Assembly (NCBI GenBank): GCA_038400315.1
Contig: CP151667.1
Span: 5,157,174 to 5,221,173, forward strand
DNA length: 64,000 nucleotides
Direction of reading: 5' to 3'
DNA from: Isosphaeraceae bacterium EP7
GTDB taxonomy: Bacteria; Planctomycetota; Planctomycetia; Isosphaerales; Isosphaeraceae
Made by a program: the position numbers and the translations under genes. Positions 1,076 through 11,664 of the stretch are shown here, in pieces; the stretch's first letter is position 1, and each line of letters opens with the position of its first letter. Under the pieces are notes generated by a model that did not search any database, was not told the origin of the DNA, and saw nothing but the letters and a program-made list of their open reading frames with translations.

Positions 1076-2452
1076 TCAGGGGAGGGTGAGCGAGGGCCGA
1101 TGCGGGCCGACGAAGGCCTCGACCACCTCGGGCAAGGCGGCCAGGTGCAGGTGAAGCAGACCGCCGACCGCGTGATGATACTTGTACATGTCAAGTTCAC
1201 CGCAGAGTGGGGCGGCCCGGCCGGGGCAGCGGCCGGGGTGGTCCGCCGGACTGAATTTCCAGCGGCCCGAGCTGTAGCCCCTCACGGTCGTCCCGCGAGG
1301 GCCGAGCCACGAGTCATTCGTGAGAGTTCGGATCACGGGCCAAGGCGGGGGCTGATTCATCTGGAGGACGGCATTCAGGGGGAGGATCCCCACGCCGTTG
1401 TGGATGCGGCCATCGATGGACATCGTCTGGCCGAGATAGGCGGCCCCTCCCCCTTCGGCATAGATTCGCCGCCCATTGCAGACGTGGCTGGAGAGGGCCG
1501 TGATCATGCTGACATTCTCGGTCAGCGCCTCGATATGATTGTCCGGGAACCCGCAGCCGATCATGACGAGGTCGGGATGGTCGGGAAGCGCCCCGTCGTG
1601 AATCGGCGAGAACTCGACGAGCTCGGCCCCCAGAGAGCTGAGGGTCTCGAGGGTGTCGGGGAAGTAACCACCAAACGCTTCGTCGCGGGCATAGGCGACT
1701 CGAAATCGGCTCCGGTCGGCCCGGACGCGCGCACCGAGCTCGCCGCTCCAGCTGAACGGCCTCGAATCGGCGAGGGCGGCGATCGCCGCCCAGTCGGCGT
1801 AGGCATCGAACTCCGTCGCCAAGGCGTCGATCAGGTCGGTTGGCATGGGCATCCCCGGGGGAACTTCCATGACAGCCTGGCGGAGCTTCGGGGCCGCCGA
1901 CATTCCGCCAAGGACCGCGCGGCCGCAGGTCATCCGGATGAAGGAGCGGAACTGGTCGAACTGCTCACGGGTCTCGAAGCCGTCGAGCATCAGGCCCTCG
2001 GCCTGTTCGGGGATGTGCGGCAGGTGAAGCGGGTCGTTTGGGTCGTGCTTGACGACCATGACCAGCGGGATCTGGAGCGACTGAGCCAGAGGTCCGATGC
2101 CGGAGACGTCGGCGGCGTCGAGGTTGTGCGGCGAAGTGCTCAGGCAGCTCGCCGTCGAACGGAGCCTTCCCTCGACCATGGCAAGCGTGACGGGGCCCGA
2201 GATGCCCCGGGCGAAAACCTCGCGGCGAACCTCGGGTTGCATGAGCCATGAGTCGAGATGACGGCCCGGCATTCCCGTGATCCGGCCGGCGACATCGGAG
2301 CCGAGCGGGCACGCCTGCGAGCGGAAATGCTGGATCCGGGCGCCTCGCCGCGTCAGGCCGGACAACATGGCCATCCCGAGCATATCCTGCTCGCAGATGG
2401 ATGTAGAGGTGGCCAGGGCCAAACAGGGAATTCGGATCATGCGGTGCACCAT
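1076..2452 (-). CDS. CobB/CbiA-like cobyrinate a,c-diamide synthase paralogue lacking P-loop and catalytic cysteine (probable pseudoenzyme)
   Basis: This protein of about 458 residues has the architecture of cobyrinic acid a,c-diamide synthase: an N-terminal dethiobiotin-synthetase-like ATPase domain and a C-terminal class-I glutaminase-like domain. Recognisable family landmarks are the RRGARIQHF strand, GMPGRHLDSWLM, GCGFPDNHIEALTENVSM, and the C-terminal HLHL that carries the triad histidine. The nucleotide-binding signature that should read like GTSSGVGKT is ATSTSICEQDM, and the glutaminase nucleophile motif AECGG is AEGGG (codons GAA GGG GGA GGG, Gly codon at 1451-1453). The frame is intact throughout, so it is a maintained protein rather than a decayed gene. 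The start at 2452 is chosen because family similarity begins about ten residues later; an ATG at 2440 is an alternative and neither has a strong RBS. No other cobalamin genes are nearby. Confidence 0.75.
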   Translation of the reverse strand: MVHRMIRIPCLALATSTSICEQDMLGMAMLSGLTRRGARIQHFRSQACPLGSDVAGRITGMPGRHLDSWLMQPEVRREVFARGISGPVTLAMVEGRLRSTASCLSTSPHNLDAADVSGIGPLAQSLQIPLVMVVKHDPNDPLHLPHIPEQAEGLMLDGFETREQFDQFRSFIRMTCGRAVLGGMSAAPKLRQAVMEVPPGMPMPTDLIDALATEFDAYADWAAIAALADSRPFSWSGELGARVRADRSRFRVAYARDEAFGGYFPDTLETLSSLGAELVEFSPIHDGALPDHPDLVMIGCGFPDNHIEALTENVSMITALSSHVCNGRRIYAEGGGAAYLGQTMSIDGRIHNGVGILPLNAVLQMNQPPPWPVIRTLTNDSWLGPRGTTVRGYSSGRWKFSPADHPGRCPGRAAPLCGELDMYKYHHAVGGLLHLHLAALPEVVEAFVGPHRPSLTLP

Positions 2453-2776
2453 CCCGGGGCGAGTCACGCGCAGAAGATCTGACACGGGAACGACACCCGT
2501 CGCGATCGACCGCGGGCCGAATTCATTTCGAGCAGTTTTGAGGGCAGAGTAATGGCAGGCACGCGGCCACCTCGCTGGGGCGACGGCGCGGGAACTCGGT
2601 TGGTTCGCCCTCAATCATAGAATTGAGCCGGCCACGGTCAAGGCCCGTCGCAGACAGTTGTCTAAGTAGCAAGCCCCGATCGACCGATTCGCCTTGCCGG
2701 GTGCAGGTGCCTTGGCTAGGGTACGCCACGACGGGACATGGATGGCCCCCACGAATCTCCGCAGGAACGTCGCCCG

Positions 2777-4702
2777 ATGGATCGAGGCGCCCCCCTCCGC
2801 ACGCGCATTGCGTCGCTGGCAATCGTGATGGCCAGCCTCGTCGCCTCGAAGGCACAGGCCGGGATGGTCGAGCCCCCCTCGCCAATTCCCCCGCCCATCC
2901 CGGCGAAATCCCCGGCGGCCCCGAAGCCGGTCGCTGCCCCGAAGGCTCAGGCCGCCGATCAATCGGTTTTGCCCATGCCGATGCCCGACAAGGCCGCCGC
3001 GGAGCCGCCTCCGACCCTGCCGCCGATCCTTCCCGAGGTCGCCACCGCCCTTCCCGACGTCGTCCGCGTCGAGACGGCCGAGGCGCTCAAGGCCCTCGAA
3101 CTGCCGGCCGAAGCCGAGACGAAGGATGCCAAGCCAGCCTTGCTCAAGGAGCGACGCGAGCTGCTCGGCGAACGGCTACGGATCCTCGACGAGCTGGAGA
3201 AGGCGTCGAGGGAGCGATATGAGGTCGAACACCCCGACCCGGACCCCAAGACGCAAATCGAGCAGCTCAAAGGGGAGCTGGAAAAAACCGGGGCCCTGAT
3301 CGCGCAGGCGGCCAAGGATCCCAAGGCTTTACTGCCCGAATGCTTCTCCGTCGATGAGGCCAAGATCGACGACGCGGCCCTCACGCTGATGAAGGAAGCG
3401 ATCGAGGCGGCGACCGGAGAGGCCAAGGACACGGCCGCGAAGGTCGAAAAAGGTCTAGCACTCGAGCCGAACAAGTCGGCCAATGCGCTCAGGGCCGAGC
3501 GGGATAAGCTCCAGCAGCGCAGGGATTCGCTGATCGCCCGCCGCGCCGAGCGTGAGAAGACGCTCGCCAGCGCGGTGGCCGCGGATGCACGCGACCTGGC
3601 CAGGCAAAGACTGGTCAACCTCTCCTGGGAGCAGCGGCTCGAAGCGGAGCGGCAGGCAATCCTGGATGCGAAAGCCACCCTCGATCCGATCCGGGCCGAG
3701 CTGGCGGCCCTCACGGCCCAATGCGCCGAGGCCGATCTTGCCGTGGCGAGGAAAGGCCTCGAACGGATGAAGGCCAAACACCAGAAATTGGCCGACCATC
3801 AGCGCGAGAAGCTGAAACGAGAGGCCGCGATCGAGCAAACCCGGGCGAAGCGCGCCAATGACCCGCTTGAGCGGCACAAGGGCAAGCGAAAGGCCGAGAT
3901 GCTCGACCTGGAAGCGGCGGTCCTCAACGACGAGAACTCCCTGGCGAATAGCAGCGGCCTATCCCTGGACGAGCTGAAGGAACGGACGGCGGTGGCGGAA
4001 AAACGCCGCGAGACTTCGAAGAAGATGGTGGAACTCGGTCGCGGGGGAGGACTGATCGCCGTCCGCCTCAAGAACGACTACAAGACGATTTCGAAAGAGC
4101 GAGAGCTGCTCAGGAAGAACGACCTTGCCTACGCCGCGGGTCGGATGGATTTCTACGAGAATCTAAGGACCGACGTCGAGATGGAGTTGCTCAACGACGG
4201 TCGTGACGACCGCTATGAGCTCGACTCGCTCCTCGAACACCTGCCCGAGTCCAGGCATGACGAGGCGACGGCGGAATTCTCGAAGATCGAGCAGGAGCAT
4301 CGCAAGTTTCTGGAGCGCAGGCTGAAAGCCCTTGCCAGCCTGGCGGAGCGCTACGAGGCCATTTATGCCGAGATCCAGAAGCGGATCGAGATCCTCGACG
4401 AGCATTACGCCTACATCCGGACTCATCTCTTCTGGGTCCGCGACACCGAGCCGATCGGCGTGCAGACGATCTCGCACACTCAGCAAGAGGCGAAGCGAAT
4501 TGTGCCGGCCCTCGTGGCATTGGCCCTGGAGCCCTGGGACGCGAAGCGATGGCGAGGGGTCTCGGTCGAGTTCGCCATCGCGGTCCTTGCCTGCATCGCC
4601 GCCCCGCTCCCCTTATACCGGCTGCAGAAAGCGTTGGGGCGACGCCTGCCGCATCGGATGCACCCCGTCGAAGTCCCGCTCACGCGAGTCGAACCCGCTT
4701 GA
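2777..4702 (+). CDS. Exported coiled-coil protein, probable periplasmic N-terminal half of a split MscK/MscM-like mechanosensitive channel
   Basis: This 641-residue protein starts with a signal peptide (MDRGAPLRTRIASLAIVMAS, then an AQA cleavage-like site), followed by a Pro/Ala-rich linker to about residue 110 and then a very long, highly charged coiled-coil region to about residue 575. A single hydrophobic helix near the C-terminus (VEFAIAVLACIAAPLPLY) is followed by basic residues and then the stop. This is the layout of the periplasmic sensor region and first membrane helix of large KefA/MscK-type channels. The channel domain is encoded by the next gene, in another frame two bases after this stop. 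The start at 2777 has an AGGA about 10 bases upstream; an ATG at 2738 is possible. The two genes most likely make one channel, or are one gene broken by a frameshift. Confidence 0.7.
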   Translation: MDRGAPLRTRIASLAIVMASLVASKAQAGMVEPPSPIPPPIPAKSPAAPKPVAAPKAQAADQSVLPMPMPDKAAAEPPPTLPPILPEVATALPDVVRVETAEALKALELPAEAETKDAKPALLKERRELLGERLRILDELEKASRERYEVEHPDPDPKTQIEQLKGELEKTGALIAQAAKDPKALLPECFSVDEAKIDDAALTLMKEAIEAATGEAKDTAAKVEKGLALEPNKSANALRAERDKLQQRRDSLIARRAEREKTLASAVAADARDLARQRLVNLSWEQRLEAERQAILDAKATLDPIRAELAALTAQCAEADLAVARKGLERMKAKHQKLADHQREKLKREAAIEQTRAKRANDPLERHKGKRKAEMLDLEAAVLNDENSLANSSGLSLDELKERTAVAEKRRETSKKMVELGRGGGLIAVRLKNDYKTISKERELLRKNDLAYAAGRMDFYENLRTDVEMELLNDGRDDRYELDSLLEHLPESRHDEATAEFSKIEQEHRKFLERRLKALASLAERYEAIYAEIQKRIEILDEHYAYIRTHLFWVRDTEPIGVQTISHTQQEAKRIVPALVALALEPWDAKRWRGVSVEFAIAVLACIAAPLPLYRLQKALGRRLPHRMHPVEVPLTRVEPA

Positions 4703-4704
4703 CG

Positions 4705-6576
4705 ATGGCCCCTCCCGTCAGACAGGCCATGTCCTTCCAGATCGCCCACGTCCGACTCGCGGAGATTCGCATGAGGTCGCTCAAGACGCTGCTGCTCTGC
4801 ATCGCTTCCGCCACCGTCTGGCCCACCTATTTCGTGCTCGCGGCTTACATGGCCCGGATCGGCCCATGGCCTCGGGGCATCGCCCGGCCGGCCTCGTACC
4901 TCATCGCCTCCCTGGCGATCGCATTCTGGGTGAGCCAGATCGTTCGATCTCTCTTCCGCCCCGAAGGTTGGGCCGAGGAGACGCTCGGAATTCCGCGGGC
5001 CGTGACACGTCAGGTCCGCGCCGCGGTTCGGGTTCTGATCGTCGGCGGCCTGGCCTGCCTTGTGCCCCGCGGGCTCCTCGAGGGGGGCCTTCTCGCCCCG
5101 TCGGATCGGCCGATCTCGGCCTCGGTCACGGGCCACTTGCTGGGGCTGGCCTACGGCCTGGTCGTCTGGGCGGTCTGCTTCCGCCTTCTCCGGAAGAACT
5201 CGCCGCTCATTGCCTGGATCGACGAGGCCACCGAGAAGCGGGGCTGGGTCGTCCGGCATCGGAGGCAGGCGGCTTGGACCCTTCTGGGCATCGTCGCGAC
5301 GATCGTGCTGCTCGATGCCTCGGGCTATGCCTACACCGCCCGGCGTCTGGCCACGGCAGGCCTCCCCTCGCTGGCGATCATCAGCCTGAGCTGGGCCGGG
5401 CGGAAGCTTGCGGTCTCGGCAATCGAGGAACACTCCTGGCGCTGGCTGTCCACCGGCAAGCTGAAGGGGGTCGTCGATAACGAGAAGTTTCCCGAGGCCC
5501 TATGCAAGCTCGTCCGCCTGGCCATTCCCGCGATCGGCCTGCTCGCCTGCGGATGGGTCTGGGAAGTCGACCTCGCACTGTTCCGGTCGATCGGTGGCAT
5601 GCCGCTCTGGCCGATCGATCAGACAACCGGCCTGACGGTGGGCGACGCAACACAGGCCCTCGTCATGCTCGCCCTGACCGCCCTCGTCTGGAAGCACATT
5701 TCCACGCTGTTCGAGCTGGTCGTCTTCCCCAGGATGTCTGACGACCCCGGCACCCGCTACGCGATCCTCACGCTGGGCCGCTATCTCGCCCTGGCGATGG
5801 GGACGCTGGGAGTGCTCTCGGCGGTCAAGCTCGGCGTCAAGGAGATCGGTGTGGTGCTCGCCGCGCTCGGCGTCGGTCTTGGCTTCGGCTTGCAGGAGAT
5901 TGTCTCGAACTTCGTCAGCGGCATCATCCTGTTGCTTGAGCGGCCGATCCGCGTGGGCGACCTCGTGACCGTGGCCGGCATGACGGGCACCGTGGACCGG
6001 ATCAACATCCGCGCAACCACCATCAATAACGCCGACAATCACAGCATGATCGTGCCCAATCGGGCCTTCATCACCGGCGATCTCGTCAACTGGACGCTCA
6101 AGGACAAGGTGATCCGGGTGTCGATCCCGTTGCGGGTCGCCCAGGGAAGCTGCCCGGATCGCGCGACCGACCTCCTGCTGATGATCGCCCGAGAGGATGC
6201 GGACGTCCTGCGGAATCCACTGCCGATCGCCTTCATGGAGGGTTTCGGCGAGTCATCGATCAACCTGATCTTGCACGTCCATGTGCCCGACCCGAGCCTG
6301 GGCGGACGCGTGAAGCACCGGCTCTGCACCCAGATCCAGAAGCGATTCGAAGCCGCGGGGATCTTGATGCCGCCGCCCACCCGAGAGGTCACTCTCCGCC
6401 AGGCCGAATCGGCAGGCAACGACCTGACCGTGGTGAGCCGGACATCGGCGAAACCCGCGGTCGAATTCCGGGCCGACCCACCGGTCCCCACCCCGACCGC
6501 CCCGCACATGCCGCGGGCCGTCCAGCCCGCCCCGACGGCTCCTATCGAGTCACGAAACCGCTGCGAGGACGAATGA
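4705..6576 (+). CDS. MscS-family mechanosensitive ion channel
   Basis: This 623-residue inner-membrane protein gates in response to membrane tension and protects against osmotic downshock. About ten hydrophobic segments precede the MscS core. The pore-lining helix and beta domain are clear near residues 390-450: GLGFGLQEIVSNFVSGIIL, then ERPIRVGDLVTVAGMTGTV and the NRAFITGDLVNWTLKD segment. The cytoplasmic alpha-beta domain with FGESSINLILHVHV follows, then a Pro-rich tail of about 60 residues. The start at 4705 is the first ATG after the upstream stop (gap of 2 bases, different frame). The open frame itself extends upstream to about 4549, overlapping the end of the coiled-coil gene. Without the upstream gene this protein would lack the sensor region normally fused to it. 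It could be translated by re-initiation or arise from one frameshifted gene. Confidence 0.85.
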   Translation: MAPPVRQAMSFQIAHVRLAEIRMRSLKTLLLCIASATVWPTYFVLAAYMARIGPWPRGIARPASYLIASLAIAFWVSQIVRSLFRPEGWAEETLGIPRAVTRQVRAAVRVLIVGGLACLVPRGLLEGGLLAPSDRPISASVTGHLLGLAYGLVVWAVCFRLLRKNSPLIAWIDEATEKRGWVVRHRRQAAWTLLGIVATIVLLDASGYAYTARRLATAGLPSLAIISLSWAGRKLAVSAIEEHSWRWLSTGKLKGVVDNEKFPEALCKLVRLAIPAIGLLACGWVWEVDLALFRSIGGMPLWPIDQTTGLTVGDATQALVMLALTALVWKHISTLFELVVFPRMSDDPGTRYAILTLGRYLALAMGTLGVLSAVKLGVKEIGVVLAALGVGLGFGLQEIVSNFVSGIILLLERPIRVGDLVTVAGMTGTVDRINIRATTINNADNHSMIVPNRAFITGDLVNWTLKDKVIRVSIPLRVAQGSCPDRATDLLLMIAREDADVLRNPLPIAFMEGFGESSINLILHVHVPDPSLGGRVKHRLCTQIQKRFEAAGILMPPPTREVTLRQAESAGNDLTVVSRTSAKPAVEFRADPPVPTPTAPHMPRAVQPAPTAPIESRNRCEDE

Positions 6577-8386: not shown

Positions 8387-9142
8387 TCAGGACTCGAGGA
8401 TATGCAGGGCGTCGTCGGTGTGGACGCTGCCCGTGAGTAACGCCCGCTTCACTTCCTGGATCGCCTGCGTGACCTTGATGTCGCGCGGGCAGGCGCTGGT
8501 GCAATTGAAGACCGTGCGGCAGCGCCAGACGCCCTCGGCATCATTCAGGATGTCGAGTCGTTCGGCGGCCCCGCGGTCGCGGGAGTCGAAGATGAAGCGG
8601 TGAGCATTGACGATGGCGGCGGGGCCGACGTATTTCTGGTCGCCCCAGAACGGCGGGCAGGCGGTGGTGCAGCAGGCGCAGAGGATGCACTTGGTGGTGT
8701 CGTCGAACCGAGCCCGTTCCTCGGGCGTCTGGATGCGCTCCGTGGTGGGCGGCGGGTCGTCATTGACCAGGTAGGGCATCACGGCCTTGTAGTGGTCGAA
8801 GAACGGCTTCATGTCGACGATCAGGTCCTTGATCACCGGCAGGCCGAGGATCGGCTCGACGGTGAGGGTGTCGCCTCGCACGTTCTTCACCAGGATCTTG
8901 CACGCCAGGGCGTTGACGCCATTGATGCGCATGGCATCGGAGCCGCAGACGCCGTGGGCGCACGAGCGTCGCAGGCCGAGGCTATCGTCGTGCAGCCACT
9001 TCACATTCTGGATGACGTCGAGGACCCGGTCGAGCGGGTCGGCCTCGATGTCGTATTCTTCCCAGCGCGGGGGCTGGTCCAGCTCAGGGTCGTACCGCTT
9101 GATCCGGACCTTGAGCGTGCGGGTCGCGGCTGCGATGGACAT
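8387..9142 (-). CDS. sdhB: Succinate dehydrogenase iron-sulfur subunit
   Basis: This 251-residue subunit passes electrons from the flavin of SdhA to the membrane quinone site. Three cluster motifs are visible: the ferredoxin-type [2Fe-2S] site (CAHGVCGSDAMRING, then NALAC, around residues 60-80), the [4Fe-4S] site CILCACCTTAC, and the [3Fe-4S] site CRTVFNCTSACP. In the first site the third ligand position is Asp rather than Cys (CGSD), as known in actinobacterial-type SdhB, so it is expected to be functional. It is the last gene of the sdhC-sdhD-sdhA-sdhB operon, 68 bases after sdhA. Confidence 0.96.
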   Translation of the reverse strand: MSIAAATRTLKVRIKRYDPELDQPPRWEEYDIEADPLDRVLDVIQNVKWLHDDSLGLRRSCAHGVCGSDAMRINGVNALACKILVKNVRGDTLTVEPILGLPVIKDLIVDMKPFFDHYKAVMPYLVNDDPPPTTERIQTPEERARFDDTTKCILCACCTTACPPFWGDQKYVGPAAIVNAHRFIFDSRDRGAAERLDILNDAEGVWRCRTVFNCTSACPRDIKVTQAIQEVKRALLTGSVHTDDALHILES

Positions 9143-9210
9143 GGGTGGTGAATCCTGCTCGGGCGGTTCGTGTGTGCGAGTGCAACGCTCGACGCGGTCG
9201 GGCCTTCAAC

Positions 9211-11058
<1,848 letters not shown>

Positions 11059-11151
11059 AGAGTCTTGATTGACGCGAACGTGTCGCGGGAATGGGTGAAT
11101 CGATCGGTCGCGGGCGGGCGATCGGGCGGGCGGCATAGGTTGGCGGATGAG

Positions 11152-11664
11152 TCAGGGCCGGCGATCGAGGCCGACCTCGATCCGGGCCGGATGAGAGGTG
11201 GTAGCGGCGGGGGCTGAAACGACGGAGCCGGCCCGCTCAGCCTTCCACTTCTCGATGTATTCCTTGTCCTGCTGGAAAAGCAAGATGGCATAGGAGCCGA
11301 TGACAATCAGGCCGATGGTGGCGGTCCAGATCAAGGTGTGCACCACGACCCGCCGGCCCGGTCGACTGATGTACTCGTCGAGGATCTGGCGCAGTCCGTT
11401 GAATCCGTGGAACACGGCCAGATTGATCATCGTCAGGTCCCAGAGCCGCCAGAAGACGCCGGTCTTCGGGTCGGCCCAACGGGAGGCGACGAAGTAGTAA
11501 TTGATGTTCTCGACGTTGTTCAAAATGTGGGTGATGAACAGATGACCCAGGGCCAGGAAGACGAGGAACAGGCCCGAGATCCGCATGAAGAACCAGGCGA
11601 ACAGCTCGAAGCCGCCTGCCGGCTTGATCCGTCGCCCCGCGTTGGAACGCGCCACGAGTGTCAC
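11152..11664 (-). CDS. sdhD: Succinate dehydrogenase membrane anchor subunit SdhD
   Basis: This 170-residue membrane protein has three hydrophobic helices: FELFAWFFMRISGLFLVFLA, LTMINLAVFHGFNGLR and VVVHTLIWTATIGLIVIG. HxxxNGLRQILDEY is the conserved anchor motif near the haem and quinone site. It follows sdhC and precedes sdhA in the same direction. The start codon is GTG (11664-11662) with an AAAGGGG immediately upstream. The tail after the third helix is longer than usual and Ala/Thr-rich. Together with SdhC it anchors SdhAB and supplies the b-type haem ligands. Confidence 0.9.
   Translation of the reverse strand: MTLVARSNAGRRIKPAGGFELFAWFFMRISGLFLVFLALGHLFITHILNNVENINYYFVASRWADPKTGVFWRLWDLTMINLAVFHGFNGLRQILDEYISRPGRRVVVHTLIWTATIGLIVIGSYAILLFQQDKEYIEKWKAERAGSVVSAPAATTSHPARIEVGLDRRP

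Follow-up and report, generated by a model that had tools for sequence, protein, structure and literature searches.

In a 64,000-nucleotide stretch of the genome of Isosphaeraceae bacterium EP7 (hereafter the window), one gene encodes a protein with the architecture of the CobB/CbiA amidotransferases and without key residues of either active site. What can such a protein still do, and why would it be kept? The gene lies on the minus strand, where the frame is uninterrupted from position 2452 down to 1076, stop codon included, and gives a product of 458 amino acids. The preliminary description had the coordinates and the open frame right, without the strand. Because the orthologs begin at residue 5 of the window protein (MIRIPCLALA...), base 2440 rather than 2452 may be the true start. 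The N-terminal stretch of the window protein shows a divergence unusual for its clade; residue 10 (positions 2423-2425, minus strand), for example, is Cys, whereas 65 of 67 clade members have Arg. The window genome is 7.2 Mb in size, 99.9% complete, and belongs to the family Isosphaeraceae.

The CobB/CbiA fold had been proposed from the sequence, and it was supported by a domain match, a structure model, and structure matches to both halves of the protein. The AlphaFold2 model has two domains (pLDDT 88.2, pTM 0.87). The N-terminal domain (residues 6-228; positions 1769-2437, minus strand) resembles dethiobiotin synthetase, with a match to 3fmi_C at Z 13.3 and rmsd 3.6 over 184 residues. The C-terminal domain (residues 248-454; positions 1091-1711, minus strand) has the class I glutamine amidotransferase fold; it contains a Pfam GATase_3 match at residues 251-368 (E 2.4e-14), and in structure comparison it matched PurQ, GatD, PdxT, and HisH with Z values of 15-17.6 (PurQ 17.6; GatD 15.4-17.4). 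The profile search, which might have pointed to another family, returned GATase_3 and the NCBIfam CobB models, the latter weakly and under their cut-offs (NF002204, 134 of 254 bits; TIGR00379, 115 of 261 bits). A sequence search of the PDB with the window protein alone as query gave no significant match. Against the viral structure library, the only matches were CTP synthase and large proteins of herpesviruses that carry a glutaminase-like domain, none of them closer.

The window protein shares with CobB/CbiA (cobyrinate or hydrogenobyrinate a,c-diamide synthase; TIGR00379, NF002204) its length, the order of a CbiA-type synthetase followed by GATase_3, and most of the fold-supporting motifs (RxLDxW, VEG, DxAF, GxG, ExGG, and the C-terminal His), at 25-27% identity over the full alignment. 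It differs in lacking the P-loop, the GPD motif, and the elbow Cys, in having RGYxxxRW in place of RGHEFHY, in its sub-cut-off scores, and in belonging to a separate clade. The N-terminal domain is like BioD, dethiobiotin synthetase (PDB 3fmi), but has no ATP loop and is fused to a glutaminase-like domain. The C-terminal domain shares its fold and the positions of the oxyanion and nucleophile loops with GatD of the MurT/GatD complex (PDB 5n9m, 6gs2; PMC5871853). GatD, however, consists of one domain and has an active Cys94/His189 dyad, whereas the window protein has Gly for Cys94 and Cys for the oxyanion Gly60.

We compared residue counts between 67 clade members and 41 catalytic CobBs. Residues 14-24 of the window protein (positions 2381-2413, minus strand) read ATSTSICEQDM, as first described, and align without gaps to the true CobB P-loop AGTHSGSGKTT, with K22 replaced by Q, G21 by E, and T23 by D. 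The Walker-A/P-loop motif GxxxxGK[ST] is missing from the window protein and from all 67 clade members (GK[ST] in 0/67, against 41/41 catalytic CobBs), and the K-GPD motif of the synthetase (positions 44, 47, and 48) is replaced throughout the clade. In the other domain, residues 332-336 are AEGGG, again as first described, where CobB has AECGG. Gly334 (positions 1451-1453, minus strand) thus stands at the catalytic Cys position (GatD Cys94). The preliminary description had asked whether this Gly is conserved, and it is: the clade has Gly in 63 members, Ala in two, and Cys in two, so that the elbow Cys is absent in 65 of 67 members and kept in 41 of 41 catalytic CobBs. The C-terminal His was correctly said to be retained. 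It is His434 (positions 1151-1153, minus strand), found at the catalytic His position in 59 of 67 clade members; with an elbow lacking Cys, the Cys-His dyad of class I glutamine amidotransferases is incomplete in the window protein. Both motifs are missing in every Isosphaeraceae ortholog, which excludes chance or sequencing error.

Orthologs were found in 67 of 397 genomes of the class, 39 of them among the 45 Isosphaeraceae and 28 in other families. The Isosphaeraceae orthologs are about 40-52% identical to the window protein and those of other families are more distant. Profile scores were bimodal, 374-699 bits for the clade versus at most 264 for catalytic CobB, in a search that covered Planctomycetota only; when the window protein alone was scanned against the full genome collection, a search that reaches close relatives only, all matches were to planctomycetes. 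In a tree that also contains 22 catalytic CobBs, a branch of support 100 separates the 67 clade members from the rest. Fourteen ortholog pairs gave dN/dS values of 0.038-0.272 (Nei-Gojobori; rough values, since dS is high in some pairs), indicating that purifying selection acts on the clade. The suggestion of a conserved pseudoenzyme, as opposed to a recent mutant, is therefore upheld by losses common to the orthologs, a single clade, and purifying selection. An apparent fusion in one genome (G023; locus L077, a 2185-aa frame) is just read-through upstream of the normal start.

The pocket itself has been remodelled in a clade-specific way. Cys300 (in GCG; positions 1553-1555, minus strand), which had escaped the preliminary description, occupies the oxyanion-hole glycine position, beside the site of the lost Cys, and is nearly fixed: Cys in 63 of 67 clade members, Gly in 41 of 41 catalytic CobBs. 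Tyr393 in RGYxxxRW (positions 1274-1276, minus strand; RGHEFHYS in catalytic CobB) is Tyr in 67 of 67, against His in each of the 40 catalytic CobBs that have a residue at this position. Trp398 (65/67) and H65 (62/67) are likewise nearly fixed and clade-specific, while R64, D67, D257, and G336 are invariant in the clade and mostly common to catalytic CobB. In GatD, the oxyanion hole consists of Gly60 and Gly95 and the catalytic dyad of Cys94 and His189 (PMC5871853). Since the profile alignment with S. aureus GatD places C300 on Gly60 and G334 on Cys94, Cys and Gly appear in effect to have exchanged places within one pocket.

Two members, L152 (AECSG) and L156 (AECGG), have both the elbow Cys and C300 and no P-loop. 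As they retain the elbow Cys without the P-loop, the disappearance of the ATP site probably preceded that of the elbow Cys, and the two proteins are possible evolutionary intermediates. The elbow Cys was perhaps lost a single time. In line with this, a tree constrained to keep all Cys-less members together is not rejected (AU p 0.674) and beats the free quick tree by 12.4 log units, although deep branches are poorly resolved.

The exchange raises the prospect of a repurposed enzyme, in which the thiol has left the nucleophile elbow for the oxyanion strand and C300, H434, and Y393 form a new active site, such as that of a hydrolase or of a thiol-dependent reaction. The near-invariance of these three residues could reflect such a site. 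C300, absent from all 41 catalytic CobBs, lies on the oxyanion-hole Gly60 of GatD as G334 lies on Cys94, and the two Cys of L152 and L156 are what would be expected if C300 arose first. However, the Cys-His pair is not fixed. Neither Cys is present in four members (L055, L151, L155, and L160), and of the eight members that have lost H434, six (L051, L146, L147, L158, L159, and L161) still have C300. These exceptions argue against a relocated nucleophile as a general rule for the clade, and we regard the repurposed enzyme as unlikely. Its more specific form, in which the swap leaves the thiol of C300 on the other wall of the pocket, mostly together with His434, as a relocated nucleophile for a new ATP-independent reaction, seems to us somewhat less likely still.

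The earlier proposal was a binding or regulatory role, perhaps for a corrinoid or another amidotransferase; the protein could then be a subunit, regulatory or structural, of catalytic CobB or CobQ, or a chaperone for corrinoids. Its kinship to CobB by fold speaks for this. The window genome does use B12, as it encodes one PduO-type adenosyltransferase along with five B12-binding domains that pass the cut-off, and the CobB-like protein occurs together with catalytic CobB in eight of the 39 ortholog-bearing Isosphaeraceae. On the other hand, no catalytic CobB was detected in the remaining 31 of 39 (drafts may under-call CobB), and a GATase_3 search of the window genome found the CobB-like gene and two weak matches only, with no catalytic CobB or CobQ. 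Three ortholog-bearing genomes (G479, G506, and G554; 96-99% complete) gave no match to the PduO-type adenosyltransferase, a result that for G506 and G554 covers only 8 of their candidates. The presence of this adenosyltransferase does not by itself discriminate, as 374 of the 397 genomes in the class have it.

CobB/CbiA genes usually, if not by strict definition, lie in a cobalamin gene cluster. No cobalamin genes were found among the neighbours of the CobB-like gene. In Isosphaeraceae, the neighbours are dacB (D-Ala-D-Ala carboxypeptidase), an MscS-type channel, sdhCAB, and an RbsD-like gene. Elsewhere in the class the gene is often downstream of an htrA/degP-type protease gene (in ten loci of other families the two share a strand, with the protease gene upstream) and near rnc, a gene for an approximately 110-aa protein, pdxJ, dapA, or mgtE. 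The inclusion of envelope-related genes is suggestive only; the neighbours are lineage-specific, no partner is universal, and we rejected them as a guide to function. With no CobB or CobQ in the genome, unrelated neighbours, and the genomes without a detected CobB or PduO match, the proposed link to corrinoids or to a partner amidotransferase is weakened, and we consider it very unlikely.

Several features of the surroundings were recorded in passing. The KefA/MscS-type channel in the window (2738-6576) consists of two overlapping frames, 2738-4702 and 4549-6576; in Singulisphaera (L005, L006) a single gene encodes the whole channel, of about 1200 aa, whereas L010, L075, and L079 also have two frames. 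Positions 1-1068 hold a gene cut by the window's start and without a Pfam match; it is related to an approximately 680-aa protein whose gene, in several Isosphaeraceae, converges on the CobB-like gene. The sdhB, sdhA, and sdhC genes lie upstream at 8387-11664, and in L011 they come immediately before the CobB-like gene, all on one strand. The conserved protein of about 110 aa (L144:9478-9885, minus strand) has no Pfam match and occurs in nine loci of several families, close downstream of the CobB-like gene and mostly convergent to it.

An active ligase of another kind, with a novel mode of using ATP or some other donor, could be suspected from residues shared with catalytic CobB, as R64, D67, E94, G95, and D257 are retained in 59-67 of 67 members. 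The clade-wide replacement of the P-loop Lys and Thr and of the K-GPD motif makes this reading less probable even than the corrinoid role. The protein might in principle carry out an amidation with free ammonia, but here too the lost ATP site is evidence to the contrary. A decaying pseudogene, a recent mutant, or a sequencing artefact, which the absence of both catalytic motifs could suggest, is practically excluded by the intact frames and identical losses in orthologs across many genera and several families, and by dN/dS values of 0.04-0.27.

Taken together, the lost catalytic residues, the conserved fold, and purifying selection argue for an ancient pseudo-amidotransferase, incapable of glutamine- and ATP-dependent amidation and selected for a different, non-catalytic job. 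We put the probability of this reading at about 0.68. Amidotransfer activity is predicted from the sequences to have been lost, and a non-catalytic binding or scaffold protein is the most likely function. With the fold kept as a scaffold, the two-domain protein would work by binding; the pockets that formerly served glutamine and the synthetase, now remodelled (C300, Y393, W398, and R64-H65-L66-D67), would either bind a small molecule, probably something other than a corrinoid precursor, or offer a surface to a partner protein.

There is a precedent for a class I glutaminase domain retained after the loss of its Cys: in human carbamoyl phosphate synthetase 1 (CPS1), the glutaminase-like S2 domain is inactive and has Ser294 in place of the Cys (PMC4655335). 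CPS1, however, keeps an active synthetase and uses ammonia, whereas in the window protein the ATP site of the synthetase is lost too. We found no paper in the open-licence literature that combines the features of this clade. A planctomycete-specific insert has been reported in a 'cobyrinic acid ac-diamide synthase' of nearly all planctomycetes then sequenced (PMC3444138); this is probably another protein, since most genomes of the class have no member of the CobB-like clade.

The clade defines a conserved subfamily whose members have the build of a fused ATP-dependent amidotransferase with both active sites dismantled. L152 and L156 resemble intermediates, which makes the order of loss in a two-domain pseudoenzyme directly testable. 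Members are likely annotated by homology as cobyrinate a,c-diamide synthase, so that a step of B12 synthesis would be wrongly credited to planctomycetes.
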